From NCBI GenBank assembly GCA_003697125.1, contig RFGB01000164.1:1-35917 (forward strand): 35,917 bases of DNA, read 5' to 3'. This DNA is from Alphaproteobacteria bacterium. GTDB lineage: Bacteria > Pseudomonadota > Alphaproteobacteria > Rhodobacterales > Rhodobacteraceae. A program made the position numbers and the translations under genes. Below, piece by piece: positions 1 through 35,855 of the stretch; the first letter of the stretch is position 1, and each line of letters begins with the position of its first letter. The notes under the pieces are model-generated. The model made no database searches. It was not told the origin of the DNA and was given only the letters and a program-made list of their open reading frames with translations.

Positions 1-1699
1 CGGCCAGCGGGCGCAGCCGGACGGGCAGCGACAGCCCGCCGGCGCAGGCAACCGCCGCCCCATCGCCCAGCGGCCACAGCCGGGGCGCGGGGGGGCGCAA
101 CGCGACCGGGCCGGCCTCGGCCTCGACGGCGGGCGCGGGCCCCAGCCGCAGCACCATCTCGCTCTCGCCCATCGGATCGCTGACCGCCAGCGGCACCCGG
201 CCGGCCGCCGCGCCATGGCGGGCGGTGACGCGGAAGCCGTCGGTGCGCCGGTGGGGATCGTCGGGCCCGGCCAGCATCGCCAGCGCGGCGCCGGCGCGCA
301 GGGCGAGCAGCCGCTCGGGATCGGGGCGCCATCCGCCGGGAAATGTCTCGGCCAGGAAGGCGGTCGTGACCGCGCCGCGCGCGAAGGCGGGCGCGCGCAG
401 GCAGTCGGCGAGGAAGGCCTGGCCGATGGCCACGCCGGGCATCGCCAGCCTTTCCAGCCCCTCGATCAGCAGCCTGCGGGCGCTGTCGCGGTCGGGGCCA
501 TGGGCGATCAGCTTGGCCAGCAGCGAGTCGTAATGCGTGCCGACCTCCGAGCCTGCGGCGACCCCGGTATCGAAGCGCAGCCCCGGGGGGGCGACCACGT
601 CGATCAGCCGCCCGGTGGCCGGCAGGAAGCCTTCCTCGGGCCGCTCGGCATTGATGCGCACCTCGATGGCGGCGCCGCGGGGGCGGATCTGGTCCTGGCG
701 CAGCGGCAGCGGCAGGCCGGCGGCCTGACGCAGCTGCCATTCCACCAGATCGACGCCGCAGATTTCCTCGGTGACCGGATGTTCGACCTGAAGCCGGGTG
801 TTCATCTCCAGGAAGAAGGGTTCGGTGCCGCCCCGCTCCAGGATGAATTCCACCGTTCCCGCCCCGGCATAGCGGATGGCGCGGGCCAGGTTCAGGGCGT
901 GGTCGAACAGCCGGCGGCGCACGGCATCGGGCAGGTCCGGCGCAGGGGCCTCCTCGATCAGCTTCTGGTGGTTGCGCTGCACCGAACAGTCGCGTTCGTG
1001 GAAATGCACCGCATCGCCCTGCCCGTCGCCGAAGACCTGCACCTCGACATGGCGCGGGGCGAGGATCAGCTTCTCGATGAACAGCGTGTCGTCGCCGAAG
1101 GCCGCGCCGGCCTCGGCGCGGGCCGCGGCCAGCGCGGCGGCGAGATCCTGTGGCCGGTCGACCCGGCGCATCCCGCGCCCGCCCCCGCCGGCACTGGCCT
1201 TGACCATGACCGGGTAGCCGATGCGCGCCGCGGCCTCGGCCAGCGCCTCGTCGGGGGCGCCGGCGGCGGCATAGCCCGGCACCACCGGAACCCCGGCCGC
1301 CTCGGCGATGCGCCGCGCCTCGACCTTCGATCCCATTGCCGCCACCGCCGCGGGATCGGGGCCGACGAAGATCAGCCCCGCCTCGGCGCAGGCCCGCGCG
1401 AAGGCGGCGTTCTCGGACAGGAAGCCATAGCCCGGATGCACCGCGTCGACGCCGCCGGCGCGGGCCGCGGCGATGATCGCGGCGATGTTCAGATAGCTGT
1501 CCGCGGGGGCGGCGGGCCCGATGCACAGCGCGCGGTCGGCCATCCGGACATGCAGCGCGCCGGCATCGGCCTTGGAATGCACCGCGATGCTGCGCAGGCC
1601 CAGACGGCGGCAGGTGGCGATGATCCGGCAGGCGATCTCGCCGCGATTGGCGATCAGGACGGTGCGGATGGGGCGGGGGGCGGTCAGGAAGGCGGTCAT
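1..1699 (-). CDS. Acyl-CoA carboxylase alpha (biotin carboxylase) subunit, partial
   Basis: This subunit carboxylates biotin with ATP and bicarbonate and passes CO2 to the beta subunit encoded just upstream. The frame is open for 566 codons from ATG at 1699 to the window edge. It shows the N-terminal IANRGEIACRI motif (about 16-26), the ATP-grasp glycine loop KASAGGGGRGMR (167-178), KLIEEAPAP (about 246) and EMNTRLQVEHPVTEEICGVD (298-317). All are hallmarks of the AccC/MccA/PccA family. Family members are about 650-670 residues, so the missing left part should hold the biotinyl domain with its AMKM-type lysine. It starts 1 nt after the beta-subunit stop, so translation is probably coupled. 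The substrate (3-methylcrotonyl-, geranyl-, propionyl-CoA) cannot be told from this subunit; the beta partner favours the methylcrotonyl/geranyl group. Confidence 0.95.
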   Translation of the reverse strand, partial: MTAFLTAPRPIRTVLIANRGEIACRIIATCRRLGLRSIAVHSKADAGALHVRMADRALCIGPAAPADSYLNIAAIIAAARAGGVDAVHPGYGFLSENAAFARACAEAGLIFVGPDPAAVAAMGSKVEARRIAEAAGVPVVPGYAAAGAPDEALAEAAARIGYPVMVKASAGGGGRGMRRVDRPQDLAAALAAARAEAGAAFGDDTLFIEKLILAPRHVEVQVFGDGQGDAVHFHERDCSVQRNHQKLIEEAPAPDLPDAVRRRLFDHALNLARAIRYAGAGTVEFILERGGTEPFFLEMNTRLQVEHPVTEEICGVDLVEWQLRQAAGLPLPLRQDQIRPRGAAIEVRINAERPEEGFLPATGRLIDVVAPPGLRFDTGVAAGSEVGTHYDSLLAKLIAHGPDRDSARRLLIEGLERLAMPGVAIGQAFLADCLRAPAFARGAVTTAFLAETFPGGWRPDPERLLALRAGAALAMLAGPDDPHRRTDGFRVTARHGAAAGRVPLAVSDPMGESEMVLRLGPAPAVEAEAGPVALRPPAPRLWPLGDGAAVACAGGLSLPVRLRPLA

Positions 1700-1700
1700 C

Positions 1701-3302
1701 TCACATCCTGTAGACCGGGCGCGCGGGGCGCGGTTCGGGGCGCATCGCGCCGATGGCCAGGCAGATGCCCAGCACCCGGCGGGTGTCGCGGGGGTCGATG
1801 ATGCCGTCGTCGAACAGCCGCGCGGTGCAGAAATAGGGGTCGGACTTCTCCTCGAACATCCGGCGCAGGCGCGCCTCATAGGCGGCCAGCTCCTCCTCGC
1901 TGGCCGGATGGCGCGAGATCGAGGCCCGGCGCAGGTCCATCAGCACCGAGGAGCCGACATCGGGGTTCATGCCCCCCAGCCTGGCGTTCGGCCACATGAA
2001 CATGAAGCGCGGGCGGAAGCCGCGGCCCGACATGCCGTAGTTTCCCGCGCCGTAGGAAGCGCCGGTGACCACCGTATAGCGGGGCACGCGGGCGTTCGAC
2101 ATCGCATAGACCAGCTTGGCGGAATGCTTGGCGATGCCGCCGAGCTCGGCCTCCCGGCCGACCATGAAGCCGGTGGTGTTCTGCAGGAACAGGATCGGCA
2201 CGCCGCGCTGGTCGCACAGCTCGATGAAATGGGTTCCCTTGAGGCAGGCTTCCGAGAACAGCACCCCGTTGTTGGCGATGATGCCGACCGGAAAGCCTTC
2301 GAGATGCGCGAAGCCGGTCACCAGGGTGTCGCCCCAGGCGGGCTTGAATTCGTGGAACGCGCTGTCGTCGACCAGCCGGGCGATGATCTCGCGCTGGTCG
2401 AAGGGCCGCGACAGGTCGGTGCCCAGTATGCCCGGGATCTCGGCGGGATCGTGGCGCGGGGGGCGCGGGGTCCGGCGGCCCGGGGCGAAGGGCTGGGCAT
2501 AGGCCAGCGCGCCCACCATGTCGCGCAGCCGGCCGATGGCGGCGTGCTCGTCCGGGGCGATGTGGTCGCTGACCCCCGACTGCAGCGTGTGCAGCGCCGC
2601 GCCGCCAAGCTCCATGCGGTCCACGATCTCCGATATCGCCGCCTTCACGATCTGCGGCCCGCCCAGATGGATCGAGGCGTTGCCCTCCACCATGACGAAT
2701 TCGTCGCACAGGGCGGGGATGTAGGCGCCCCCCGCGGTGCATTCGCCGAAGACCGCGGCCAGCTGGGGAATGCCTTCGGCCGACATGCGGCACTGACGGA
2801 AGAAGGTGCCGCCGAAATGGTTCTCGTCGTAGAAGACCTCCTCCATCTGGTTCAGGTTGGCGCCGCCGCAATCGACCAGATACAGGACCGGCAGGCGGTT
2901 CTCGCGGGCGATCTCCTGGGCGCGGATGTGCTTCTTCACCGTCTCGCGGAAGAAGCTGCCGCCCTTCACGGTGGCATCATTGGCGATGATCATGCAGGCG
3001 GTGCCCCGCACCGTGCCGATTCCGGTGACGATCCCGGCCGCGGGAAGCTGGTTGTCATAGAGCCCCCAGCCGGCCAGCGGCGTCAGCTCCAGGAAGGCGG
3101 TGCCGGGATCGATCAGCAGGTCGATGCGCTCGCGCACCAGGATCTTGCCGCGGGCGCGATGGCGTTCGACCATCTTCGGCCCGCCGCCCGCCAGCGCCCA
3201 GCCCAGGCGTTCGTGCAGCTGGTCGATCAGCGCATCATAGGCCGCGGCGCGGGCGCGGAAATCGGGGTCTGCGGGGTCGATGCGGGTCTCGAGCACGCTC
3301 AT
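1701..3302 (-). CDS. Acyl-CoA carboxylase beta (carboxyltransferase) subunit, MccB/AtuC type
   Basis: This subunit transfers CO2 from carboxybiotin to an acyl-CoA. At 533 aa it matches the usual MCC beta length (about 535). It has the two crotonase-fold halves: the N half with GECTAGGAYIPAL (about 186-198) and SGVSDH, and the C half with NTTGFMVGREAELGG and a GASYGAGNYGM oxyanion segment. Tracts such as HFGGTFF and FSEACLKGTHFIELCDQR are typical of methylcrotonyl- and geranyl-CoA carboxylases rather than AccD or PccB. The start at 3302 has an AGGA Shine-Dalgarno 6 nt upstream. It lies 24 nt after the PaaK-like gene and 1 nt before the alpha subunit. No enoyl-CoA hydratase or HMG-CoA lyase follows inside the window; they could lie beyond position 1. 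Family call is firm; exact substrate is open. Confidence 0.95.
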   Translation of the reverse strand: MSVLETRIDPADPDFRARAAAYDALIDQLHERLGWALAGGGPKMVERHRARGKILVRERIDLLIDPGTAFLELTPLAGWGLYDNQLPAAGIVTGIGTVRGTACMIIANDATVKGGSFFRETVKKHIRAQEIARENRLPVLYLVDCGGANLNQMEEVFYDENHFGGTFFRQCRMSAEGIPQLAAVFGECTAGGAYIPALCDEFVMVEGNASIHLGGPQIVKAAISEIVDRMELGGAALHTLQSGVSDHIAPDEHAAIGRLRDMVGALAYAQPFAPGRRTPRPPRHDPAEIPGILGTDLSRPFDQREIIARLVDDSAFHEFKPAWGDTLVTGFAHLEGFPVGIIANNGVLFSEACLKGTHFIELCDQRGVPILFLQNTTGFMVGREAELGGIAKHSAKLVYAMSNARVPRYTVVTGASYGAGNYGMSGRGFRPRFMFMWPNARLGGMNPDVGSSVLMDLRRASISRHPASEEELAAYEARLRRMFEEKSDPYFCTARLFDDGIIDPRDTRRVLGICLAIGAMRPEPRPARPVYRM

Positions 3303-3326
3303 CGGCTGTCCTGTGGGCGATGCCGG

Positions 3327-4523
3327 TCAGCGCCGGCGGGCGTCATGCAGGGGCTGGGGGATGGTGAAGCCGGCGACCGCGACCACCCGGTCAAGTCGCA
3401 GGCGGGTGATGCGGCGGAAGGCGTCGCGCACGTCCGCCTCGGCCACCGGCGGGCCGGTCAGCTCCAGCGTCAGCAGGTCGCGCGGGCCCTCGCGGTCGAT
3501 CCTCAGCCGCGCCGCGCGGCCCTGCCCGCCCAGCTCGGCGGCCAGCCGCTCCAGATGGTCGGGATAGACGAAGATCTCCCGCACCTTGACCCCGGCGCCG
3601 ACCCGCCCCTCGATGGGACCCAGCCGGGCGACGAAACCGTCGGGCGAGATTTCCATCGCCCGGGCGACATCGCCGGTTCCGAAGCGGATCATCGGCCAGC
3701 CCGGGTTCAGCGTCGAGACGACCACCTGCCCCGGCGCGCCCGCGGGCAGCGGAGCCCCCGTTTCGGGGTCGCAGACCTGCACCAGCCGGTCGGGATGGGT
3801 GAGATAGCCCGCGCGCCCGGGCTCCTCGTGCCCCACCAGCCCCAGATCGGCGGTGCCATAGGCGGTGTGGACCGCGACGCCATGCTCGGCCTCGATCCGG
3901 GCCCGGCGGGCGGGCCAGTCGCCGGGCTCGCCGACCAGGAAGGCGTGGCGCAGCGTCCAGCCCCCCCGGGTGGGACCGTTGCGCGCCGCCCAGGCCGCGG
4001 CCACCGTCTCGAAATGGCTGGCCGAGCCGAGGAAGGCGGTCACGCCCAGGCTGGCGATCAGGGCGAGCTTGAGCTCGGTCTGGCCGGGGCCGGCGGGCAC
4101 CACGGTCGCGCCCACCGACCGCAGCCCGCGGTCGAAGATCAGCCCCGCGGGGACCAGATGATAGGACCAGGTGTTCAGCGCCACATCCCCCGGCCCCAGC
4201 CCCGCCGCGGCGAAGATTCGCCCCATGCCCATGCCGTCGGCATCGTCGGCGGGCACAGGTTCCATGATCGGCCCCGGCGAGACGAAGACATGGCCGATGC
4301 CCTCGGTCGGGCAGCCGAGGAAGCCCGCGAAGGGCGGATCGGCCGCCTGCAGGCGCATCAGTTCCGCCTTGGCCAGCACCGGCAGCCGGTCGAGCGCGCC
4401 GGGCGTGGCCAGATCGGCCGGCGCCAGCCCCGCGGCCGCCAGCCTGCGCGCCAGCGCCGGGGCGTGGGGCAGCGCCCGGGCCACGGCCGCAGCCAGACGG
4501 GAAAGCCGGGTTGCGCCCGTCAT
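3327..4523 (-). CDS. PaaK-like AMP-forming acyl-CoA ligase family protein, divergent P-loop
   Basis: The 398-aa product aligns in layout with phenylacetate-CoA ligase, but it is about 30-40 residues shorter. AYGTADLGLVGHEE fits the A5 region, RFGTGDVA the A7 region, and GRVGAGVKVREIFVYPDHLE fits the PaaK GR-x-D-x-G-V-x-V-P-x-x-E segment. The adenylate P-loop of PaaK (SSGTTG) is replaced by VSPGPIMEP at 81-89, with no SGTTG anywhere. Proteins of this type are often encoded beside Liv-type transporters, but their reaction is not established to my knowledge. The start at 4523 overlaps the livF stop by 4 nt (ATGA); a longer upstream frame exists but lies inside livF. It may be a ligase, a CoA-ester editing enzyme or a binding protein that has lost adenylation. 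Confidence 0.85.
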   Translation of the reverse strand: MTGATRLSRLAAAVARALPHAPALARRLAAAGLAPADLATPGALDRLPVLAKAELMRLQAADPPFAGFLGCPTEGIGHVFVSPGPIMEPVPADDADGMGMGRIFAAAGLGPGDVALNTWSYHLVPAGLIFDRGLRSVGATVVPAGPGQTELKLALIASLGVTAFLGSASHFETVAAAWAARNGPTRGGWTLRHAFLVGEPGDWPARRARIEAEHGVAVHTAYGTADLGLVGHEEPGRAGYLTHPDRLVQVCDPETGAPLPAGAPGQVVVSTLNPGWPMIRFGTGDVARAMEISPDGFVARLGPIEGRVGAGVKVREIFVYPDHLERLAAELGGQGRAARLRIDREGPRDLLTLELTGPPVAEADVRDAFRRITRLRLDRVVAVAGFTIPQPLHDARRR

Positions 4524-5314
4524 CCCAGCCACCTCTTGCGGCGGCGGTAATGCTTCACCTCGCGATAGCTGGGCCGGTCGCCGCCCGACAGGCCGAGATA
4601 GAATTCCTGCACGTCCTGGTTTCCCATCAGCTCGGCGCGCGTGCCGTGCAGCACGATGCGCCCGCCTTCCATGACATAGCCGTAATCGCACCGGGCGATG
4701 GCCGCGCGGGCGTTCTGTTCGACCATCAGCACCGTCAGCCTCTCCTCGGCCCTGATGCGCCCGATGGTGTCGAACAGCTGCTCGACAAGGACCGGCGCCA
4801 GCCCCATCGAGGGTTCGTCGAGGATCAGCAGCCGCGGGCGGGCCATCAGGGCGCGCCCGATCAGCAGCATCTGCATCTCGCCGCCCGACAGATAGCCGGC
4901 GGTGCGGCCCAGAAGCGCGCGCAGACGCGGGAAATAGCCGAACACCCGTTCCAGATCGGCGCGCACCTCCGCCCCGTCGCGGCGCAGATGCGCGCCCACC
5001 ATCAGGTTCTGGCGCACCGTCAGATGTTCCAGCACGCGGCGGCCTTCCAGGACCTGGACGATCCCCTTGCGGAAGATCGCCGCGGGATCGGCACCGGTGA
5101 TGTCCTGCCCGTCGAAGGCGATGCGGCCGGCGGTGACGGCGCCCTGATCGGCGTGGAGCAGCCCCGAGACCGCCCGGAGCGTGGTGGTCTTGCCCGCGCC
5201 ATTGGCGCCCAGCAGCACCACCATCTGGCCCTCGCGGACCTGGATGTTGGCCGAGCGGAGCACCTGGATCACCCCGCCATAGACCACATCGACATTCGAC
5301 AGGCTCAGCAGCAT
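4520..5314 (-). CDS. livF: Branched-chain-type ABC transporter ATP-binding protein (LivF)
   Basis: This is a cytoplasmic ATPase subunit of a HAAT-family importer, 264 aa. Walker A is GANGAGKTT (36-44), the signature is LSGGEMQML, Walker B is RLLILDEPS, and the His-loop position reads VEQN, as usual in LivF. It carries a basic C-terminal tail (SYREVKHYRRRKRWLG) absent from E. coli LivF, and a very similar tail ends the second LivF of this window (29923-30705). It starts 4 nt after the binding-protein stop and overlaps the PaaK-like gene by 4 nt, so it sits in the middle of the operon. The transported compound is more likely a carboxylic acid than an amino acid, given the CoA ligase, dehydrogenase and carboxylase around it (inference from context). 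Confidence 0.95.
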   Translation of the reverse strand: MLLSLSNVDVVYGGVIQVLRSANIQVREGQMVVLLGANGAGKTTTLRAVSGLLHADQGAVTAGRIAFDGQDITGADPAAIFRKGIVQVLEGRRVLEHLTVRQNLMVGAHLRRDGAEVRADLERVFGYFPRLRALLGRTAGYLSGGEMQMLLIGRALMARPRLLILDEPSMGLAPVLVEQLFDTIGRIRAEERLTVLMVEQNARAAIARCDYGYVMEGGRIVLHGTRAELMGNQDVQEFYLGLSGGDRPSYREVKHYRRRKRWLG

Positions 5315-5318
5315 CGCC

Positions 5319-6512
5319 TCACCACCGCTCCAGCGCCGGCACGTCGAACCAGCCGTCGGTCAGGGTGGTGATGGCGCCGTCGCGCACCACCTCGGCGGTG
5401 GCCTTGATCCGGCCCACGGGAAATGGCGCGGTCTCGTCGTAATCGAGGCTGGGCAGCACCCCGAGGAGCTCCTCCTCGGTGTATTGATGGCCGAGCAGGG
5501 CGTCATACATGGCCTGCCCGTCCACGCCGTCCGCACCCTTCGCCGCGATCGCCCGTTCCAGAACCCTGAGCGCGAGGATCGCCTGGGCGCAGGCCTGGGC
5601 GGTGATCAGGCCCCACCTGCCCTCGGTGGCGAAGCTTTCGAACACGTCGCGCATCGGCAGGTCCGGCCGCCCCGGGGGCGAGAAGCTGAAGGCGGCCATC
5701 GCGCCCTCGAGCCGCTCCAGCGGGATGCCCTTGGAGACCTCGTAGAGCCCGTTATGCGTCGAGGTCACGATCGGCACGCGCTGGCCCAGCTCCTCCATCG
5801 CCTTGACCGCGGCGATCACCTGCGCCGTGGTGCCGCCGATCAGCACCAGGTCGGGCCGTTCGGCCAGAAGCGCGCGCATCTGCGCGGTCAGCGAGACGGG
5901 CGCGGTCTCGGCCCATTGCACCCCCACCACCGCGAAGCGGTCGGGATACTGCCGCGCCAGCTGCTGGACGCCCTTGACCTGGTCGACGAAGCCGGCCTGG
6001 TTCTGGGTCGAGATCGCGCCGATGCGCAGCACGCCACCCTTCCCGGCCTGCAGATGGGCGAACAGCCCGGCGAATTCGTGGCTGTAGGTGGGCCGGACCG
6101 AGAAGTGCCAGCCGCCCGGCTTCCAGACCAGCCCCACCATCGCCGTGCCCAGCAGCATCGGCACCCGGTCATTGGGCAGCCGGCCCATCAGCGTGGTCAG
6201 GTCGGGCGAGCCGAAGCCCAGATGCATGATCGGCCGGTCGCCGGCCAGGATGGCCGGCCAGGTGCGCGCGATCACCGCCCCGTCATAGCGCATGTCATAG
6301 ATCTTCAGCCGGACATCCACGCCCAGATCCTTGCCCACGGTGGCGTTCCACCAGTCGATGGTCGCCTTCAGCCCGGCCATGGCGTCGGGCATCACGTCGG
6401 CGAAGGGGCCGGAATAGTCGGCGCTGGCGGTCATGACATAGGTCCTGGCCATCGCCGTCCCGGCAAGGCCCAGCGCCAGCGCCCCGGCGGCCAGCAGCGT
6501 TCGCTTCAGCAT
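5319..6512 (-). CDS. Periplasmic substrate-binding protein, branched-chain/HAAT family
   Basis: This is the periplasmic receptor of the importer, 397 aa. A Sec signal peptide is clear: K-R then a hydrophobic stretch LLAAGALALGLAGTAMA, with cleavage probably after AMA. The mature part has the periplasmic-binding (type I, LivJ-like) pattern, including MTASADYSGPF, IGAISTQNQAG and PDLVLIGGTTAQVIAAVKAM. I set the start at 6512, not further upstream, because GGAGG stands 7 nt before this ATG and the signal peptide begins here. A 7-bp stem hairpin (6533-6553) sits just upstream in the message, between livM and this gene. The ligand is unknown; the ACAD and carboxylase genes suggest a branched or isoprenoid acid. 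Confidence 0.93.
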   Translation of the reverse strand: MLKRTLLAAGALALGLAGTAMARTYVMTASADYSGPFADVMPDAMAGLKATIDWWNATVGKDLGVDVRLKIYDMRYDGAVIARTWPAILAGDRPIMHLGFGSPDLTTLMGRLPNDRVPMLLGTAMVGLVWKPGGWHFSVRPTYSHEFAGLFAHLQAGKGGVLRIGAISTQNQAGFVDQVKGVQQLARQYPDRFAVVGVQWAETAPVSLTAQMRALLAERPDLVLIGGTTAQVIAAVKAMEELGQRVPIVTSTHNGLYEVSKGIPLERLEGAMAAFSFSPPGRPDLPMRDVFESFATEGRWGLITAQACAQAILALRVLERAIAAKGADGVDGQAMYDALLGHQYTEEELLGVLPSLDYDETAPFPVGRIKATAEVVRDGAITTLTDGWFDVPALERW

Positions 6513-6532
6513 GTCGTCCTCCCTCCTCTGTG

Positions 6533-6553
6533 GCCCGGGTGCACCGCCCGGGC
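6533..6553 (-). promoter_or_regulatory. Intercistronic hairpin upstream of binding-protein gene
   Basis: The arms GCCCGGG (6533-6539) and CCCGGGC (6547-6553) are perfect complements around a 7-nt loop. In the transcript it stands between the livM stop and the Shine-Dalgarno of the binding-protein gene. There is no T tract, so it is not a classic terminator. A stability or processing element that raises binding-protein expression is a reasonable inference. Confidence 0.45.
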
Positions 6554-6568
6554 GCGGTCGCCGGCCGC

Positions 6569-7621
6569 TCAGTTCCGCGGGAACGGCCACAGCCGGAATG
6601 CCGTCATCACCTGATGCCAGAGATGCGCGAGGCCCCGCGGTTCGAGGATCAGCGCCGCCAGCACGCACAGCGCGAGCAGGATCGAGCTGAGGGCGAAGAA
6701 CGCCCCCCCGCCCAGCGCGCTGTCGGATTGCAGCATCAGATTGGCCGCCTTGTGCAGCCCCTCCTGCAGGGCGGTGACGAAGCACACCCCCAGGATCGCC
6801 CCCAGCGGGGAATGCATCCCCCCCACGATCAGCATGCCCAGATACCAGACCGAGGCGAACAGCGTGAAGTTCTGCGCGGTGACGAACTGCAGGAAATAGG
6901 CCATCAGCGCGCCAGCCACCCCCGCGAACAGCGCCCCGGTGAAGAAGGCGGCGATCTTGACGCGGGCCACGGGAATGCCCATCACCTCGGCCGCGGTGTC
7001 GTTGTCATGCACCGCCCGCATCGCCCGGCCCAGCCGCGAGCGCGGCAGGTTGAACCCGCACCACACCGCCAGCACCGTCACCGCGAGGCACAGCCAGTAG
7101 AGCCGCCCCGGCGTGGACAGGCCGATGCCGAACAGCGCGGGCGGCGTCACCGGCAGGCCGACCAGCCCGCCAAGCCACGCCATCGGCAGCGCCATGACGA
7201 TGATCGGGAACATCACCTGCGCCGCCAGCGTGGTCAGCGCCAGGTAGAACCCCCGCACCCGCACCGCCGGCAGGGCGAACAGCACCGACACCGCCCCGGT
7301 GATCAGCGCCGCCACCGGCAGCACCGCCCAGAAGGGCACGCCCATCCCCGAGAGCCTGGCGGTGGCGAAGGCCCCCACCCCGACGAAGGCCGACTGGGCG
7401 ATGTTGATCTGCCCGGCCATGCCCACCGTGACGCAAAGCCCCAGCACCGCGATCAGGGTGATGAACAGGTTGGTCAGCTCGCCCAGAAGCCAGGGGCCGG
7501 CGATCAGCGGCATCGCCGCCAGCACGGCCAGCAGCGCCAGCGCCGACAGGCGCGCGCGGCGCGTCTCCAGCACGCGGGCCTCGGCGGCATGGGTCTCGAA
7601 CCACAGTCCGGTCGGTCGCAT
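6569..7621 (-). CDS. livM: Branched-chain-type ABC transporter permease (LivM)
   Basis: This is an inner-membrane permease of 350 aa with about nine to ten hydrophobic segments and a hydrophilic N-terminus of about 25 residues. The LivM landmarks are present: GMAGQINIAQSAFVGVGA (the GxxGQxSxGxAxFxGxGA motif), LPAVRVRGFYLALTTLA, and the cytoplasmic coupling region SRLGRAMRAVHDNDTAAEVMGI. Near the C-terminus there is a LILEPRGLAHLW segment. It starts 3 nt after the livH stop. It pairs with LivH in the membrane and contacts LivF/LivG. The substrate is not shown by sequence. Confidence 0.95.
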   Translation of the reverse strand: MRPTGLWFETHAAEARVLETRRARLSALALLAVLAAMPLIAGPWLLGELTNLFITLIAVLGLCVTVGMAGQINIAQSAFVGVGAFATARLSGMGVPFWAVLPVAALITGAVSVLFALPAVRVRGFYLALTTLAAQVMFPIIVMALPMAWLGGLVGLPVTPPALFGIGLSTPGRLYWLCLAVTVLAVWCGFNLPRSRLGRAMRAVHDNDTAAEVMGIPVARVKIAAFFTGALFAGVAGALMAYFLQFVTAQNFTLFASVWYLGMLIVGGMHSPLGAILGVCFVTALQEGLHKAANLMLQSDSALGGGAFFALSSILLALCVLAALILEPRGLAHLWHQVMTAFRLWPFPRN

Positions 7622-7624
7622 CGC

Positions 7625-8524
7625 CTAGAGCCTTTCGATCCTGCGCCAGCCGAACAGCCCGTAGGGGCGGATCAGCAGCACCGCGATCATCGCGACATAG
7701 GGCAGCACGCCCGAGGCCGCGCCATTGGTGATCGGGTCGAGATAGGTGGTGGCCAGCGCCTCCAGCACGCCGATGATCACCCCGGCAAGCGGCGCGCCGC
7801 GGATGCTCTCCAGCCCGCCAAGCAACGCCACCGGCAGCGCCTTGAAGCCGATGCCTGCCACCTCGAGCGAGAGGATCGAGCCCGACAGCAGCACCACCGC
7901 GGCCGCGGTGGCCACCAGCGTGCCCAGCACCCAGGCGACCGCGATCGCCTGGCGCACCGACACGCCCAGCGACAGCGCGGTGACGTGGTCCTCGGCCACC
8001 GCGGCCAGCCGCAGCCCCAGGCGCGACCGGGTGAAGAAGACATGCAGCGCGGCGGTCAGCGCCAGGGTGAACAGCGCCCCGATCAGAAGCCGGGTGTTGG
8101 CCAGGAACGGCCCCAGCGTCAGCGCCCCCTCGGGCAGGATCACCGGCGCGGTGCGCGACTGCGCGCCCCACAGCAGCTGCGTCACCCCCCGCAGCAGGAT
8201 CAGCAGCGCCACGCCGGCCATGAAGATGGTGAAGCCCGACTGCCCGATCAGCGGCCGGAAGATGCCGCGTTCCAGCATCACGCCGAAGGCGATGCAGGCC
8301 AGCGCCGTCAGCCCCAGCGCCACCGGCAGCGGCAGCCCGACCCCGGCCGCCCGCGCCCCCTCGGTGACGCTCCACAGCACATAGGCGCCGAACAGCAGAA
8401 CCTCGCCCTGGGCAAGGTTGATGATCCGCGATGCGCGATAGATCACCACGAAGCTGATCGCGACCAGGCCATAGACCAGCCCGACCAGCACGCCCTCGAT
8501 CAGGATCTGGATCAGACCGGTCAT
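7625..8524 (-). CDS. livH: Branched-chain-type ABC transporter permease (LivH)
   Basis: This is a 299-aa inner-membrane permease. It has the LivH signature near the N-terminus (GLVYGLVAISFVVIYRASRI followed by INLAQGE), several membrane segments, and a late LLGGLESIRGAPLAGVIIG motif. It ends with IRPYGLFGWRRIERL, as LivH proteins typically do. The true start is ATG 8524, which overlaps the ligase stop by 4 nt (ATGA). The frame stays open far upstream through the ligase gene, but that extension has no ligase-like or LivH-like sequence and is a GC-bias artefact. Confidence 0.95.
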   Translation of the reverse strand: MTGLIQILIEGVLVGLVYGLVAISFVVIYRASRIINLAQGEVLLFGAYVLWSVTEGARAAGVGLPLPVALGLTALACIAFGVMLERGIFRPLIGQSGFTIFMAGVALLILLRGVTQLLWGAQSRTAPVILPEGALTLGPFLANTRLLIGALFTLALTAALHVFFTRSRLGLRLAAVAEDHVTALSLGVSVRQAIAVAWVLGTLVATAAAVVLLSGSILSLEVAGIGFKALPVALLGGLESIRGAPLAGVIIGVLEALATTYLDPITNGAASGVLPYVAMIAVLLIRPYGLFGWRRIERL

Positions 8525-10518
8525 GCGCCGTCTCCGTCGATGAAGTTCATCACCACCTCGGCGACGAGCCGCGACCGGCGCCCGTCCCGATAGGCCACCT
8601 CGATCGCGCAGGGCACCCGTTCCTGCCGGCGGTAGAGCCCGTCGATCAGCATCGCGTAGCGCGCCTCGATCGCGGCCCGGCGCAGCTTGCGCGAACGCGT
8701 CAGCTCCTCCTCGTCGGCATCCAGCGGCTTGGGCAGGTTGGCGAAGGCGGCGATCCGCGCGCCGGGATCCACGCGGCCGTTCACCCGCCGCACCGCGCGG
8801 GCGATCTCGGCGCGCACCGGCGCAAGCTGGCTCAGCTCGGTATGGGTGCCGAAGGCGAGGCCATGGCGTTCGGCGAAGCGGCCGGCGATCTCCGTGTCGA
8901 TGTCGATCAGCGCCACCACCCGGTCGCGATCCTCGCCGCCGATCACGATCGCCTCGCGGATCAACGGCTCGGCGCGCAGGTGGTTCTCGAGGAACTGCGG
9001 CGGATAGACCTGCCCGGTGGACAGGCGCCGCAGGTCCTTGACGCGGTCGAGGAAGACCAGCTCGCCGCGTTCGTCCAGCCGGACGGCATCGCCGGTCTCG
9101 TAGCCATGCGCCGCATCGCCCAGCGCCGCCGTCGCCTCGGGATCGCCGAGATAGCCCGAGAAGGCCTTGACGCTGAGCCGCAGCTGGCCGGTCGCGTCCA
9201 CCCAGGCTTCCATCGGCGGGGCGATCGCGGGATCGGAGGGCATCAGCCGGCCCATGCTGTCGGGATTCGCGTCGCCGGGGTGATGCGTCGCAATCAGCCC
9301 CAGCTCGCTGGAGCCATAGAGATTGCCGAGCGGGACGCCGAAGGCGCGGAAGCGGCGGAAGATCTCGGCCGACAGCCCCGAGCCGCCCGACAGCACCGCG
9401 CGGGCGCGGGTCAGCCCCAGAAGGTCGCGCACCCCCTTCAGCACCAGCTGGTCGGCCAGGGGCCAGGACACCAGCCGCGCCCATGCCCCGCCCCGGCCGG
9501 CCGCGCGCGCCGCGCCCTGGCGCAGCCCCTAGGCGAACAGGCGCTGGCGCCAGGCCGGGGCATCCATCATCCGCGCCTCGACATTGCTGGCCAGCATCTC
9601 CCACTGGCGCGGCGTGAACATCAGGAATTCGGGCCCGATCTCGCGCAGGTCCTTCTGGACGGTCTCGGGCTTCTCGGCGACATGCACCACCAGCGGGGCC
9701 AGCAGCACCAGCCCCACGCCGAAGAACTGTTCCGCCGCCCAGGCCGGCGAGATGTAGGAAAGGTAGTTGCCCCCCGCGCGGATGCCCAGCGCCCCCATCA
9801 GGCGGTAGGCGTTGTCCAGCACGAAGGCATGGCTGAGCATCGCCGCCTTGGGCCGGCCGGTGGTGCCCGAGGTGTAGCAGTAGACCGCCACATCCTCGGG
9901 CCCCGCGGCGGCGATCGCCTCGTCCAGCCAGGGGCCGTCGCGCCCGGCGGCCAGCATCTCGTCCCACCCGGTCAGCCCCGCGGCGCGATAGTCCCACAGC
10001 CCGCGCGGATCGACATGCAGGATGCGGCGCAGCCGGGCGGCCGCATCGGGGCGCGCCAGGATCTTGTCGACCTGCTCCTGATCCTCGGCCAGCGCCATCG
10101 CCACCCCGGCATGGGCGATGACATGGGCAACCTCCTCCGCGCCGGCATCGGGATAGACCGCGACCGCAACCGCCCCCAGGCAGCCCGCGGCCAGCTGGGC
10201 GATCCAGGCCTCCTCGCGGTTCTCGGACAGGATCATCAGCACCTCGCCCCGGCCCAGCCCCAGCGCCGACAGGCCGGCCGCGGCCCGGCGGGTGGCGGCC
10301 CACAGCGCCGCCCAGTCCAGCGTGCGCCACAGCCCGCCGCGCTTGGACCGCAGCGCCGGCCGGGGACCGAAGCTGCGGGCATTGTCGCGCAGCATCTGCG
10401 GCAGGGTGCGCCCGCCCGATCCGCGCGGCAGCTGAACGCTGGGCGCGCGCAGGCGGATGCCGGGCGCGGCGGGGCGGGCGATGGCGCCGCCGGGCGCGGC
10501 CGGACCGGCGGCGGTCAT
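8521..10518 (-). pseudogene. Long-chain-type acyl-CoA synthetase (AMP-forming), interrupted by in-frame TAG
   Basis: The intact form would activate the imported acid to acyl-AMP and then acyl-CoA; total length is about 665 codons. The N part (329 aa) holds the P-loop YTSGTTGRPKAAM (215-227). Codon 330 is TAG (9529-9531). The same frame then continues without another stop to 8521, giving YGSSELG (A5), YETGD (A7), DRVKDLRRLSTGQ (A8) and a late RSRKLRR. Frame and family motifs continue on both sides, so this is a single nonsense change, not a frameshift. Context RLFA-stop-GLRQG suggests a Trp codon (TGG to TAG), by comparison with remembered relatives. A GTG at 9471 could restart a C-terminal fragment. 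It overlaps livG and livH by 4 nt each. It is a paralogue of the ligase at 33928-35811 (shared AEDQE-x-VDKIL). It could be a real null allele, a suppressed stop or a sequencing error. Confidence 0.9.
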
Positions 10519-11309
10519 GGGGTGGCCCCCTCGGTGGCGCCGCCCAGATAGGCGGCGATGACCCGGGGATCGGTGCGGATCGCGGCGGGGATGTCGTCGG
10601 CGATCACCGCGCCGAATTCCAGGACGGTGATGCGGTCGGAGATGTCCATGACCACATCCATGTCATGTTCGACCAGCACCACCGGGATGCCGAAGCGGTC
10701 GCGGATGTCGAGGATGTAGCGCGCGAGGTCGCCCTTCTCCTCGGGGCTCATCCCGGCCATGGGTTCGTCCATGATCAGGATCCGCGGCTCGAGCGCCAGC
10801 GCCCGGCCCAGATCGACGCGCTTGCGCAGGCCATAGGGCATCTCCCCCACCAGGGCGTGGCGGTGTTCCTCCAGCTCGAGGAAGGCGATGATCTCCTCGG
10901 CGCGGGCGGTGAAGGCCTCCTCCTCCCGCACCGCCGCGGGCCATCGGAAGAGCCCGGCCAGGATGCCGGCCCGCATCCGGGCGTGGAAGCCGGTCAGGAT
11001 GTTCTCGCGCGCGGTCAGGCCGGGATAGGTATGGATGCCCTGGAAGGTGCGGCCGATCCCGGCGCGGGCGCGCGCTGCGGGTCCGAGTGCGGAGATGTCG
11101 CGCCCCCCGAACAGCACCCTGCCCGAGCGCGGCCGGTAGAATCCCGACAGGCAGTTCAGCAGGCTGGACTTTCCCGCGCCGTTCGGCCCGATCAGGGCGT
11201 GGATCGCGCCCGGGGCCACGCGCAGCGAGACGCCGCGGAGCGCCTCGACCGCGCCGAAGCCCAGGCGCAGCTCGCGCGCCTCGAGCACTGCCTCCGCGCG
11301 CTCGGTCAT
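10515..11309 (-). CDS. livG: Branched-chain-type ABC transporter ATP-binding protein (LivG)
   Basis: This is the second ATPase of the importer, 264 aa. Walker A is GPNGAGKSS, the Q-loop region is GRTFQGIHTYPGLT, a degenerate signature reads MPYGLRKRVDLGRAL, Walker B is RILIMDEPMAGMSPEE, and the His-loop is VLVEHDMDVVM. The C-terminus has the LivG-type DPRVIAAYLG. Two in-frame ATGs exist. The one at 11315 touches the GGAGG (11316-11320) directly, whereas the one at 11309 lies 6 nt from it, so I choose 11309. The gene overlaps the ligase by 4 nt. The upstream gap of 69 nt to the dehydrogenase contains a hairpin whose 3' arm overlaps the Shine-Dalgarno. Confidence 0.94.
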   Translation of the reverse strand: MTERAEAVLEARELRLGFGAVEALRGVSLRVAPGAIHALIGPNGAGKSSLLNCLSGFYRPRSGRVLFGGRDISALGPAARARAGIGRTFQGIHTYPGLTARENILTGFHARMRAGILAGLFRWPAAVREEEAFTARAEEIIAFLELEEHRHALVGEMPYGLRKRVDLGRALALEPRILIMDEPMAGMSPEEKGDLARYILDIRDRFGIPVVLVEHDMDVVMDISDRITVLEFGAVIADDIPAAIRTDPRVIAAYLGGATEGATP

Positions 11310-11315
11310 GGGCAT

Positions 11316-11344
11316 CCTCCCCGGTTTCGATGCTGCGGCCGGGG
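11316..11344 (-). promoter_or_regulatory. RBS of livG with overlapping hairpin
   Basis: GGAGG at 11316-11320 fixes the livG start at 11309. CCCCGG (11339-11344 in the message sense) can pair with CCGGGG (11319-11324), whose last bases belong to the ribosome-binding site. Partial masking of the site is possible; the stem is only 6 bp. Confidence 0.4.
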
Positions 11345-11378
11345 ATCTGTCGCCCCCTTCGCCGCGGTTGCGGACGGT

Positions 11379-12542
11379 TCAGGTGAAGCTGACCTCCAGC
11401 CCGCAGGCGCGGGCGATCAGCAGCGTCTGGATCTGGCTGGACCCGTCGCCGATGGTGGTGATGCGGTTGTCGCGCAGATAGCGCGACGGCGGGCAGTCAT
11501 CCATGAAGCCCCAGCCGCCATGGACCTGGATGGCCAGGTTGGCCACCTCCGAGCCGGTCTCGGTGGCATGCAGCTTGGCCATCGACAGCGCGCCAAGATC
11601 CTCGATGCCCTGATCGACCTGCCAGGCGGCGCGATAGGTGACCAGCCGGGCGCTGTCGACCTTCAGCGCCATCTTCGCGATCATCTCCTGCACCAGCTGC
11701 AGCCGGCCGATGGTGCCCCCGAAGGCCCGGCGGGTGTTGGCATGGGCGATGGCGTGGTCGAGGCTGGCCTGGGCGAGACCCAGCGAGCAGGCGGCCAGGA
11801 ACAGCCGGGCGGCCTGATAGCCCTTGTGCAGGATGTAGCGCCCGCCATCCACGGGGCCGACCACGGCCTCGGGGCCGACCTCGGCGCGGTCGAGATAGAG
11901 CGGCCGGGTGTCCGAGCTGCGCCATCCCATCTTCCGGTAGGGTTCGCCGCGCGTATAGCCGGGGGTGTCGTTGGGCAGCAGGAACAGGGTGAACTTCTTC
12001 CGCTCGGCCGATTTCGGGCTGGTCACCGCCAGGATCAGGGTGAACAGCGAGATCGGCGTTCCGGCATTGGTGATGAAGGCCTTCTCGCCGGAGAGCGCCC
12101 AGCCCCCCGCGGGGGTGGGTTCGGCACGGGTGCGGAAGCCCTGCGTGTCCGATCCGGCATCGGGCTCGGTCCCGGCGATGGCGCAGATGCGGCGGCCGGC
12201 GATGATGTCGGGCAGCCAGCGGCGCTTCTGCTCCTCGGTGCCATAGCGGGCCACGGTCAGGCCGGTGGCCATCGAGACCATGGCCGAGACGGCCAGCGAC
12301 TGGTCGGCGCGGGCCAGCTCCTCGATGGCCAGCACCGCCTCGAACACGCCCAGCCCCAGCCCGCCCAGCTCGGCGGGAAAGGGGATGGCGGTGATCCCCA
12401 TCTCGCCCACGCGCTGGAACAGGTCGACCGGAAAGACGCCCTCGCGGTCCAGCGCCTCGGCACGGGGCGCGACCTCGCGCCGGGCGAAATCCCGTATGGT
12501 CTGCTTCAGCTCGCGCTGCTCGGGCGTCAGGTCGAAATTCAT
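11379..12542 (-). CDS. Acyl-CoA dehydrogenase (FAD)
   Basis: This enzyme introduces the alpha-beta double bond in an acyl-CoA and passes electrons to ETF; 387 aa, normal for short/medium-chain ACADs. The N-terminal domain begins FDLTPEQRELKQTIRDFA. FAD-contact stretches are AIAGTEPDAGSDTQG and GEKAFITNAG, followed by RRAFGGTIGRLQLVQ and QVHGGWGFM. The C-terminal base region normally reads EGT-x-EI, but here it is GDGSSQIQ with Asp at 366. The position used by isovaleryl-CoA dehydrogenase for its alternative Glu also seems to be non-acidic (KGYQAARLF). ATG 12542 has AGGAGG about 6 nt upstream; a longer frame to 12593 runs into the tetR gene. It follows tetR by 19 nt. The product should feed the carboxylase at the end of the operon. 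Confidence 0.93.
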   Translation of the reverse strand: MNFDLTPEQRELKQTIRDFARREVAPRAEALDREGVFPVDLFQRVGEMGITAIPFPAELGGLGLGVFEAVLAIEELARADQSLAVSAMVSMATGLTVARYGTEEQKRRWLPDIIAGRRICAIAGTEPDAGSDTQGFRTRAEPTPAGGWALSGEKAFITNAGTPISLFTLILAVTSPKSAERKKFTLFLLPNDTPGYTRGEPYRKMGWRSSDTRPLYLDRAEVGPEAVVGPVDGGRYILHKGYQAARLFLAACSLGLAQASLDHAIAHANTRRAFGGTIGRLQLVQEMIAKMALKVDSARLVTYRAAWQVDQGIEDLGALSMAKLHATETGSEVANLAIQVHGGWGFMDDCPPSRYLRDNRITTIGDGSSQIQTLLIARACGLEVSFT

Positions 12543-12561
12543 CGCATCCCTCCTGGATCGG

Positions 12562-13230
12562 TCAGGGTTCCGTTCCGGCGGGCGCCGCGCCACGGTGGAT
12601 GGCCGAGCCGAGCGCGGCCGGCGGCTGGGCGGCCAGCGCGCGGGTCACCAGCTCCATCAGCGCCTCGGCCACCTCGCCCGCCCGCCAGGCGCCGTCGGGG
12701 TTGTACCACTTGGTGACCCAGTGGATGGCGCCCAGCAGCATGAACACGGCGAGCTTGGGGTTCATCGGCAGGATCGAGCCGTCGGCGATGCCCTGTTCCA
12801 CCAGGGCGCGCAGCCGCCGTTCATAGGCATCGCGCAGGGCATAGATGCGCTCGGCCTCCTCGCCCTGCAGCGCGTTCTCCTCCAGGATCAGCACCGGGAC
12901 GCCCAGCTCTCCGATCATCTCGGCCAGATAGGCGCTCATGCCGATGCGGATCTTCTCCAGCCCGGTGCGCCCGCTGCGCTCGCCCTCGGTCAGGGTGCGG
13001 TCGGCGATCTCCATCGCCTCCTCGTGGCAGGCGAACAGCAGATCGTTCTTGTTGCGGACATAGCGGTAGAGCGCAGCCTTGCTGACGCCCAGCCGGTCGG
13101 CGACGTCATCGAGCGTGGCGCCATGGCATCCCCGGCGGGAGAAGATGCGCGCGGCCTCGCGGATGATGGCCTTGCGCTTCAGCTCCTGCTGCTCGGCGCG
13201 GTCGGGCACCGCATTGGCCCATCGCGTCAT
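12562..13230 (-). CDS. TetR-family transcriptional regulator
   Basis: This is a 222-aa regulator. The N-terminal helix-turn-helix spans about 38-61 (ATLDDVADRLGVSKAALYRYVRNK) within a canonical TetR_N domain (KRKAIIREAARIFSRRGCHG). The remainder is an alpha-helical ligand domain resembling regulators of acyl-CoA metabolism (inference). It is the first gene of the acid-import operon and probably represses it until an acyl-CoA or the free acid binds. The ATG at 13278 overlaps the -10 box I propose, so I use the ATG at 13230, although its Shine-Dalgarno (GGA) is weak. Three related motifs near the promoter (13245-13320) are candidate autoregulatory sites. Confidence 0.9.
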   Translation of the reverse strand: MTRWANAVPDRAEQQELKRKAIIREAARIFSRRGCHGATLDDVADRLGVSKAALYRYVRNKNDLLFACHEEAMEIADRTLTEGERSGRTGLEKIRIGMSAYLAEMIGELGVPVLILEENALQGEEAERIYALRDAYERRLRALVEQGIADGSILPMNPKLAVFMLLGAIHWVTKWYNPDGAWRAGEVAEALMELVTRALAAQPPAALGSAIHRGAAPAGTEP

Positions 13231-27821: not shown

Positions 27822-28526
27822 ATGACCGAGGCTCGGATGTCCCGACGGCCCCGCCTGCCGAGTCTGCCGGTGGCGCAGGCTCTCTCGATGCCGTTGCGCG
27901 ATGCGCTGCGCGGGCTGGCCGGTGTGGCCGACCTGACCGAGGAGCTGCTCGAGCCGCTGCGGCGGGCAGTCCCCGCGCCGGTGCTCGATGCGCTCCGGGC
28001 GCTCGAGGGGCGCGGGGCGCGCCTGCTGGAAGCGGGGATTTCCGAGGCCGACATCGGCGCCGCGGCAGCCTTCCTCGCCGGCCCTTCGGCGCGACGCAGC
28101 GATGCGTTCGCCTGTGCGCGGGTTCTGGCCTTCGCCTGGGACCATCTGCGCCGGCGCGAGGAGCCGTCCCTTCTGCTCAGCGAGGTGCTGACCGCCGCGC
28201 GGCTTGGCACCATCGCCGACCGGACCGCCGGGCCGCCGATGCGCGCGGCGCAGCTGGTGCTGGCGCTGCGTGACGCGCATGTGGCCGGACGCATCCCCGG
28301 GCTCCCCGTGACCCTGGATGAGGAGGAGAAGGCGGCGATCGAGCTGCGGCTGTGCGGTCTGGCCGTATGGCTTCTGGCCGAGCGCGGCACATCGCTTGCC
28401 GAGGAGGTCCGGCTTCTGGATCTGGCCGATGCGCTGGTGGCCGCGGAATCCGCGCGCCTGCGCGCGGCGATGGGCGATCCGGCGGCGCTGGCGCAGGCGC
28501 TGCGCGAAATCTCGGACCACCTCTGA
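27822..28526 (+). CDS. Conserved-looking helical protein of unknown function
   Basis: I do not recognise this 234-aa protein. It is Ala/Leu/Arg rich, almost entirely helix-forming, with no signal peptide, no membrane segment long enough to be sure of, and no catalytic motif I can name. Local features: an acidic-hydrophobic stretch LTEELLEPLRRA near 37-48, two cysteines in separate helices, and an amphipathic C-terminus. ATG 27822 has AGAGGCGAG just upstream and begins 11 nt after the kinase stop, so it is in the sugar operon. A second in-frame ATG is at 27837. The strong codon bias matches the neighbours, so it is a real gene. It could be a regulatory or scaffolding partner of the kinase or E1/E2 complex (speculation). 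Confidence 0.8.
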   Translation: MTEARMSRRPRLPSLPVAQALSMPLRDALRGLAGVADLTEELLEPLRRAVPAPVLDALRALEGRGARLLEAGISEADIGAAAAFLAGPSARRSDAFACARVLAFAWDHLRRREEPSLLLSEVLTAARLGTIADRTAGPPMRAAQLVLALRDAHVAGRIPGLPVTLDEEEKAAIELRLCGLAVWLLAERGTSLAEEVRLLDLADALVAAESARLRAAMGDPAALAQALREISDHL

Positions 28527-28538
28527 GGGGCCGCGGCA

Positions 28539-29138
28539 ATGTCCGATGTCACGCCAGTCCGGCCGGTCCGAAAGTCCGCACAGCGGGTGCGCTGGTTCAT
28601 CGAGACCTTCAATGCCCATCTCGGGCAGGTCGAGGCCGAGACCGCAAACCGCTTCGTTCTGGACGAACGCGCCCTGGTCGCCGCCTTCTCGGAATGGATT
28701 CACGCCTTCGATGCCCAGAAGCCCGGCCGTTCGGAGGATCGCGAGGCCTTCGTGGGCTTTGCCGCCGGGCTGATGCTGCGCAGCCTCCTCCGCCACGCGC
28801 CGGCGCGGTGCGTCGGGGGCCCGGAAGGGGCTGACCCGGGCCGTCCCGCCCATTTCTGGCCGGAGGGCCATCTCTACGTGACCTTCTGCCTGAAGCTGCG
28901 CGGACTGGTGCTGGAACAGGACTTCCATGCCCGGCAGGCGGGCGCCCCGGCGGTGCTTGACGATCTGCGTGCGTGGGAGAGCTTCCGCGAGAACGTCGCC
29001 GCGGATTCGCGCCTGGCCGTCGCCTTCCTCGACCTGTTCGCCGGCGCGGACCCGGACTGGCACATGCCCGGGCTTTTCCGCCCCCGCCCTGGCCCCGCGC
29101 TCGGGCCCGGGAAGGAGAAGGCGCGGCTCGAACCCTAG
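28539..29138 (+). CDS. Protein of unknown function, last gene of the sugar operon
   Basis: I do not recognise this 199-aa cytoplasmic protein. The N-terminus is basic (RPVRKSAQRVRWF), the middle is helical (AFVGFAAGLMLRSLLRHAP), there is a HFWPEGHLYVTFCLKLR segment around 107-123, and the last 35 residues are Pro/Gly-rich and probably disordered. No signal peptide or membrane helix is evident. It starts 12 nt after the preceding stop, with GAGGGG about 9 nt before the ATG. Together with the previous gene it forms an unidentified pair behind the kinase. It ends 18 nt before the convergent livG of the next operon. Confidence 0.8.
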   Translation: MSDVTPVRPVRKSAQRVRWFIETFNAHLGQVEAETANRFVLDERALVAAFSEWIHAFDAQKPGRSEDREAFVGFAAGLMLRSLLRHAPARCVGGPEGADPGRPAHFWPEGHLYVTFCLKLRGLVLEQDFHARQAGAPAVLDDLRAWESFRENVAADSRLAVAFLDLFAGADPDWHMPGLFRPRPGPALGPGKEKARLEP

Positions 29139-33872: not shown

Positions 33873-33927
33873 GGCTTCCTCCCGTCCATTGTCTGAACCG
33901 TTCGGGCAGGCGACGCGCCCGCCCCGG

Positions 33928-35811: not shown

Positions 35812-35855
35812 GTCCGCCACCTCCGCGAATCATGCTTTCCGCTGGCAGTGACGAA

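Follow-up and report, generated by a model that had tools for sequence, protein, structure and literature searches.

The closest published system to the one described here is the mycobacterial bkaR regulon (accD1-accA1-fadE19-Rv2499c-citE-bkdABC; PMC3920632, PMC4347857, PMC6689899). The gene for Rv2498c lies in its TetR-regulated operon accD1-accA1-fadE19-Rv2499c-citE (PMC3920632), and Rv2498c gives an R-specific 3-hydroxy-3-methylglutaryl-CoA (HMG-CoA) lyase step (PMC6689899). Further points of comparison are the liu cluster with its 3-methylcrotonyl-CoA carboxylase (MCC), the atu cluster with geranyl-CoA carboxylase (GCC), and the Pseudomonas ict-ich-ccl genes with the IctPQM tripartite ATP-independent periplasmic (TRAP) transporter (PMC12599236). 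We analyzed the whole of contig RFGB01000164.1 (the window, 35,917 bp, position 1 being the contig end) from a member of the Rhodobacteraceae (assembly GCA_003697125.1). On its minus strand, a TetR-family gene heads an operon for a Liv-type ATP-binding cassette (ABC) importer, two adenylate-forming family proteins, an acyl-CoA dehydrogenase (ACAD) and a biotin-dependent carboxylase. Comparison with relatives establishes that this is a real, conserved and mostly uptake-coupled carboxylation cluster. We lean, with a little more confidence than doubt, towards a TetR-linked operon for the catabolism of a short, isoprenoid-type carboxylic acid, beta-methyl-branched and taken up from outside.

Ten minus-strand genes from TetR to the carboxylase beta subunit, plus a truncated alpha subunit, run from position 13209 to 1 with neighbours at most 63 bp apart. 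The gaps from TetR to alpha are 19, 63, −4, −4, 3, 56, 4, −13, 24 and 1 bp, where the −13 between the LivF and PaaK-like genes applies to a GTG start at 4532 (used in our analyses of the PaaK-like protein) and becomes −4 with the ATG used for the coordinates listed below (4523-3327). All named genes have Pfam support, that of the PaaK-like protein lying below the AMP-binding cut-off (27.7 against 29.9), and the importer set is complete, with two ATPases, two permeases and a type I binding protein. The single coupled operon proposed in an earlier sequence-only reading of this DNA is thus borne out. That reading had also suggested extending the sequence to the left of position 1, where the contig ends; for the same reason alpha is cut before its carrier domain.

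Relatives were collected in one scan of genome contigs with the beta subunit, covering the best 80 of 260 relatives. Beta identity was 72-88% for 32 loci (L050-L081) and 63% for L082, and then dropped to 54% or less. These 33 loci, several of them short, make up what we call the third-lineage set, in which genes were called at identity thresholds of our own choosing. Alpha was called in 32 loci, MaoC in 28, CitE in 25 and a short-chain dehydrogenase/reductase (SDR) in 16, followed by LivH and FadD (15 each), the PaaK-like gene and ACAD1 (14 each; the former not called in L057), TetR (12) and ACAD2 (7). Since the ACAD, LivGHMKF, FadD and PaaK-like genes were each called in 14-16 of the 33 loci and TetR in 12, the operon layout is not a product of chance. 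Hosts include Rhodobacterales, Ferrovibrio, Phreatobacter, Methylobacterium, Reyranella, Bradyrhizobium and Marinobacter.

Coupling to uptake was examined in the long loci (at least 15 kb; 28 of the 32 loci L050-L081). An import and ligase module adjoins the carboxylase core in 24 of them: the window's Liv/FadD module in 15, a second Liv type with another ligase in 5 (L071, L076, L077, L078, L080), and, transcribed divergently from the core, a TRAP transporter plus ligase in 4 (L051, L056, L060, L061; TRAP parts Pfam-checked on L051 only). L068 holds a ligase and a binding protein, and a looser count of any importer anywhere in the locus gives 25 of 28. By contrast, importers of these Liv or TRAP types, sought only by similarity to the third-lineage proteins, were found in none of 43 long MccB loci (of 47) from the same scan, a control made of the next-best beta matches and not a random sample; these 43 carried LiuE in 22, a ligase in 15, and MaoC and CitE in 1 each. 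The claim that a dedicated importer separates this cluster from liu therefore holds. Import block and core are separable modules, because they are divergent in L063 and split by a racemase homolog and a TetR-type gene in L064 and L173.

The window-type operon is rare in the family sample, since the PaaK-like protein occurs at 60% identity or more in only 4 of 394 family genomes. As an operon marker this protein was rejected: homologs at E<1e-40 are present in 285 of the 394, with only those 4 reaching 60%. Homologs about 41% identical lie in Rhodobacterales Liv clusters without a carboxylase (L166, L171; FadD in L171), and others, of a 49% group, lie in a CaiB/ECH (enoyl-CoA hydratase) cluster (L167, L170).

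The genes expected beyond the contig end can be read in an intact relative. In the Seohaeicola saemankumensis locus (L036/L059) the gene order is the same and continues alpha (with a Biotin_lipoyl domain)-MaoC-SDR-ACAD2-CitE. The best NCBIfam models for the L036 proteins were RipB/Ich for MaoC (154.5 bits, cut-off 340) and RipC for CitE (184.8 bits, cut-off 375), scores below the equivalog cut-offs that make them relatives rather than equivalogs of these enzymes. Among solved structures, CitE matched 3qll first (144 bits) and then the 6aq4/6as5 set (142 bits); 6as5 is the structure of Rv2498c, an (R)-HMG-CoA lyase (PMC6689899). A homolog of the HMG-CoA lyase LiuE was found in none of the 28 long third-lineage loci, which carry MaoC and CitE instead. 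Downstream of alpha, relatives thus do have the hydratase and lyase whose presence the sequence-only reading had made its check, yet these are of MaoC and CitE type rather than crotonase and HMG-CoA lyase.

With these genes, the cluster shares with the bkaR system a TetR regulator, beta and alpha carboxylase subunits, an ACAD, a hydratase and a CitE-type lyase (PMC3920632, PMC4347857, PMC6689899). That it works like the bkaR system is well supported by gene content, with the activities of MaoC and CitE being predictions. It differs in that its beta subunit forms a clade apart from AccD1, and in that the keto-acid dehydrogenase genes described for bkaR are replaced by those for an importer, FadD and a PaaK-like protein. 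This replacement makes an external acid, rather than an internal keto acid, the probable substrate. Like liu, the cluster joins an MCC-type alpha/beta carboxylase, with the MCC Phe motif, to an ACAD; unlike it, it lacks the crotonase and HMG-CoA lyase pair. A dedicated organic-acid importer also accompanies Ich and Ccl in Pseudomonas (PMC12599236), which are MaoC-like and CitE-like by their NCBIfam model names, and the four TRAP-bearing loci resemble that system further. However, the acid there is already a dicarboxylate (itaconate), and the opening of that abstract names no carboxylase or dehydrogenase (PMC12599236). Searches within the open-licence PMC literature gave no title on a cluster of the present kind, although one may still exist.

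Next, we investigated the lineage of the beta subunit. Among solved structures it scored 588 bits against Pseudomonas MCC beta (3u9r), 582 against AccD1, 571 against 9tps, 570 against human MCC and 405 against GCC, while the propionyl-CoA carboxylase (PCC) chains of the PDB, 9tps set aside, reached at most 265 bits and identity to PccB stayed at the 33-34% level. The 9tps_A chain is deposited as PCC beta, yet has the MCC-type motif HFGRVF and resembles MCC beta by sequence. In a tree of 108 rows the window falls in a 35-row clade (Shimodaira-Hasegawa-like approximate likelihood ratio test, SH-aLRT, 100) nested in a 38-row clade (99); the third-lineage clade stands apart from 61 MCC, 6 GCC-like and 2 PCC rows. 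One of the PCC rows matches 3n6r at 1033 bits, which shows that these rows are real PCC. L119, which belonged to none of these groups, was excluded from residue-column counts. A 43-row tree that includes 5ikl gave supports of 100/100 for the third lineage, for the third lineage plus its sister rows, and for GCC; the third lineage and sister rows grouped with GCC at 87/82, and MCC did not form one side of a branch. In a quick tree with two divergent plasmid rows added, this pairing broke (fork supports 16 and 96), MCC was not clearly one clade, and the sister lineage (T2) was not one clade either. By these trees, the beta subunit appears to represent a third lineage distinct from MccB and AtuC, and its placement on the gamma-carboxylating MCC/GCC side, within neither PccB nor AccD, is supported; the lineage may have descended from within MCC. 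Of the MCC/GCC-type assignment made at first sight, the side of the family stands, and membership of MccB or AtuC appears to give way to a separate clade.

Sister-lineage beta subunits are 56-59% identical, were placed with L008 and L009 at SH-aLRT 98, and occur on plasmids. One lies on a Sulfitobacter SK025 plasmid (L146) among three carboxyltransferase genes, itself counted, with an adjacent AtuA-family gene; another is in a cluster with two carboxyltransferase genes on a Polaromonas JS666 plasmid (L144). In PLSDB, 748 plasmid records match the beta subunit, all below 60% identity, and the third lineage proper is not among them.

As the third lineage and its sister rows can group with GCC, and as its carboxylase falls on the gamma-carboxylation side that it shares with atu, we asked whether the cluster could be a divergent atu system degrading terpenoids of the citronellate or geranate type. 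The pocket residues make this improbable. MCC is told from GCC by a Phe in the N-domain pocket and a 3-residue insertion before it, where GCC has Gly, and this Phe blocks geranyl-CoA (PMC4673880). Both Phe and insertion are present in all 12 third-lineage and sister rows displayed and absent in the 6 GCC-like rows, so that the third-lineage pocket is probably small and a substrate of geranyl-CoA size is disfavoured; the Gly and the 3-residue deletion of GCC were not seen. A distant AtuA homolog (30-31% identity) does directly precede the third-lineage beta gene in L066 (5868-7163), and the AtuA-family and additional carboxylase genes beside the L146 sister beta, as well as racemase neighbours suggesting methyl-branched chains (see below), agree with a terpenoid substrate. 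However, tblastn, which detected all four positive controls, gave no AtuA homolog for the remaining 32 of the 33 third-lineage loci. The L066 locus also holds hydantoinase B, ACAD, CaiB-like and crotonase genes. The initial idea of an external 3-methyl-branched or isoprenoid acid is retained in general, with its citronellate option disfavoured.

A small MCC-type pocket could equally serve a second plain MCC pathway for external isovalerate or 3-methylcrotonate, that is, leucine chemistry under another regulator, with its own importer and the mycobacterial R-route. We regard this as fairly unlikely, though the three Phe of the MCC motif (criteria of PMC4347857) are kept in all 12 rows, accD1-accA1 mutants of M. 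smegmatis fail on isovalerate (PMC4347857), and the operon parallels the mycobacterial TetR-regulated accD1 operon (PMC3920632). Against it, the window's genome already holds a liu-type cluster on contig C78 (L040) with crotonase (PRK07468, 404.5 bits, cut-off 350), dehydrogenase, MCC-clade beta, alpha and HMG-CoA lyase (458 bits, cut-off 246), the dehydrogenase and alpha names being our own. LiuB at 67% identity or more is present in 24 of 25 genomes searched (G791 is the exception; G087 and G777 are the same genome), and 19 of the 25 have homologs of HMG-CoA lyase with at least 50% identity, one of these homologs being partial. Because a separate LiuB accompanies it so regularly, the third-lineage carboxylase is not merely the leucine MCC. 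Moreover, at a 90% threshold the third lineage and MCC have different fixed residues in 27 alignment columns (35 rows, 33 distinct, versus 61), including Ser187 to Glu and Phe212 to His, and the racemase neighbours also speak against this alternative. Ser187 and Tyr422 are substrate-recognition residues of Pseudomonas MCC, according to the title of a reference cited in PMC4673880; we matched the numbering ourselves, the native positions falling on Ser and Tyr, and Tyr422 is kept in the third-lineage rows displayed.

From gene content, conservation, beta lineage, pocket residues and co-occurrence with LiuB, we infer a pathway in which the substrate, every reaction, its stereochemistry and the order of steps are proposals. 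LivK/H/M/G/F would import the acid and FadD would activate it with CoA. ACAD1, aided in some relatives by an ACAD2 of isovaleryl-CoA-dehydrogenase type, would then make a 3-methyl-2-enoyl-CoA, to whose gamma carbon the alpha/beta carboxylase would add CO2. The 3-methylglutaconyl-type product would be hydrated by the MaoC hydratase, probably R-specific, and the CitE-type lyase would release acetyl-CoA and an acetoacetate-type acid by retro-aldol cleavage. We hold more tentatively, below an even chance, a further proposal: that, next to MCC and GCC, the beta subunit forms a third gamma-carboxylating branch whose particular substrate, a short enoyl-CoA with a beta-methyl branch or a polar substituent, is recognized through Glu187 and His212; that this branch is mostly coupled to uptake; and that it is paired with an R-type MaoC/CitE arm, which would avoid mixing with the leucine pathway.

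The dehydrogenases were examined for their catalytic residues. In all 14 aligned rows, the window included, ACAD1 carries Asp instead of the usual catalytic Glu, at a position that we take to be Glu376 of medium-chain acyl-CoA dehydrogenase (MCAD), the catalytic Glu in MCAD-type enzymes. Asp at this site is unusual for an ACAD. All 8 ACAD2 rows (7 distinct) have Gly at the usual site and a Glu in an ERLV/ERMV helix, presumably the isovaleryl-CoA dehydrogenase pattern. A CaiB-family racemase homolog lies beside or inside the cluster in five loci (L054, L064, L075, L169, L173); the homologs are 57-76% identical to the L054 copy, one being partial, and the closest match of this copy is alpha-methylacyl-CoA racemase (1x74, 303 bits). 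Such neighbours fit methyl-branched acids.

The binding protein was also consulted for the ligand. LivK has no sequence match in the PDB, and its predicted model (predicted local distance difference test, pLDDT, 85.3) has a type I binding-protein fold. The three top Foldseek matches are Rhodopseudomonas binding proteins, with several aromatic-acid complexes following, whereas VIA-align ranks a valine binder and a fatty-acid binder above aromatic-acid binders. Assigning a ligand by homology or fold was therefore given up, as binders of amino, aromatic and fatty acids are listed together. The Foldseek order, together with the PaaK-like and FadD-like genes, would suit an alicyclic or aromatic acid pathway, with the carboxylase opening a route for a ring-bearing beta-branched acyl-CoA. 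This we consider highly improbable in view of the VIA-align order, the small MCC-type pocket, and the fact that no ring-cleavage gene was seen by eye in the L036 cluster or in 17 loci displayed.

Several observations weigh against the proposed operon for a short beta-methyl-branched acid. Glu replaces Ser187 in 35 of 35 third-lineage rows (33 distinct) and MNPDVGS-like residues replace the MGGEQAA stretch of MCC, so that the enzyme may act on something other than a plain 3-methyl-enoyl-CoA. Binders of amino, aromatic and fatty acids are not told apart by the LivK fold. The racemase association is a minority one (3 of 28 long loci), and the comparison with solved racemases covered the L054 copy alone. 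Three loci (L052, L054, L058) carry beta-alpha-ACAD2 without MaoC and CitE. In the window itself, FadD is interrupted in the assembly, and a search of that assembly for MaoC, ACAD2 and CitE yielded no orthologs (best matches 52, 39 and 44%), so that the completeness of the operon rests on relatives. None of these best matches looks like its missing part: the MaoC match is on contig C281, the ACAD2 match on C168, and the CitE match on C153 (L137), near a two-domain MaoC-like gene. The C281 locus (L142) is a TRAP/MmgE cluster of TRAP-type genes, SDR, ACAD, MaoC (53%) and an MmgE/PrpD protein, possibly a further acid pathway.

These defects raise the question of whether the operon is decaying and non-functional in the window's genome, which would be compatible with any substrate and which we judge unlikely. 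The FadD-like frame has an in-frame TAG at 9529-9531, a site occupied by Trp in all 16 ortholog rows (15 distinct); the TAG may be a real loss or a sequence error. Elsewhere on the contig, a second Liv cluster has a binding-protein gene broken across two frames, and the failure to find MaoC and CitE orthologs points the same way. On the other hand, the nine other operon genes ending inside the contig have open frames, errors in a draft sequence can account for both disruptions, and contig breaks can explain missing genes in a genome of 3.51 Mb in 315 contigs at 95.4% completeness. The operon in this organism may thus be damaged or only imperfectly sequenced. The PaaK-like protein differs in kind: SPGPI replaces the SSGTTG loop of PaaK in the window's alignment row and likewise in 15 of 15 other rows, and this second adenylate-former is probably not a working ligase. 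Both genes of the expected adenylate-forming pair are present, with the ligase function of each in doubt in the window.

If the preferred reading of the cluster is correct, the MCC/GCC group, in which misannotation is frequent (PMC4673880), would gain a third substrate class. The MaoC/CitE route of mycobacterial leucine breakdown would also be found in marine and soil Alphaproteobacteria and in Marinobacter, there serving an external acid. As the same core occurs with two Liv types and one TRAP type, what the importers and ligases share offers a direct way to the substrate.

Table 1. Genes of the operon in the window, listed from the regulator to the contig end.
Feature	Coordinates	Strand	Basis
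TetR-family regulator (TetR_C_24)	12562..13209	−	Pfam; ortholog called in 12/33 related loci
Acyl-CoA dehydrogenase ACAD1	11379..12542	−	Pfam; Asp at usual catalytic Glu site
LivG-type ABC ATPase	10515..11315	−	236.7 bits to PRK11300, below cut-off of 362
FadD-like adenylate-forming CoA ligase	8521..10518	−	Pfam; in-frame TAG at 9529-9531
LivH-type permease	7625..8524	−	Pfam and family-model matches
LivM-type permease	6569..7621	−	Pfam and family-model matches
LivK-type periplasmic binding protein	5319..6512	−	Pfam Peripla_BP_6; model pLDDT 85.3; type I binding-protein fold
LivF-type ABC ATPase	4520..5314	−	Pfam and family-model matches
PaaK-like protein without SSGTTG loop	3327..4523	−	Pfam AMP-binding below cut-off
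Carboxyltransferase beta subunit, third gamma-carboxylating acyl-CoA carboxylase lineage (by sequence)	1701..3302	−	Pfam; trees; pocket residues
Biotin carboxylase alpha subunit	1..1699	−	Cut by contig end before carrier domain

An operator was sought upstream of TetR in the window and 13 relatives. No palindrome was common to all 14 stretches, and the 6-mer GTGACC/GGTCAC was present in 9 of them.

Elsewhere on the contig, the minus strand at 16.4-22.2 kb carries a 2-oxoacid-dehydrogenase-type set with E2 domains fused to an alpha/beta hydrolase, an E1 beta-like protein and E1_dh, together with a DRL_cat/SAF oxidoreductase and a Sugar-bind regulator. On the plus strand at 22.5-27.8 kb lies a sugar-type ABC importer (SBP_bac_1, BPD_transp_1, MalK-like ATPase) with a PfkB kinase, followed by two small genes (27888-28526 and 28587-29138) without a Pfam match. 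The second Liv-type importer (LivG2, LivF2, LivM2, LivH2) occupies the minus strand at 28.9-35.9 kb with FadD2 (33928-35820). Its binding protein has Peripla_BP_6 positions 2-221 in one open reading frame (32904-34085) and 207-341 in another (32708-33202), a split over two frames that indicates a frameshift, either genuine or an assembly error.

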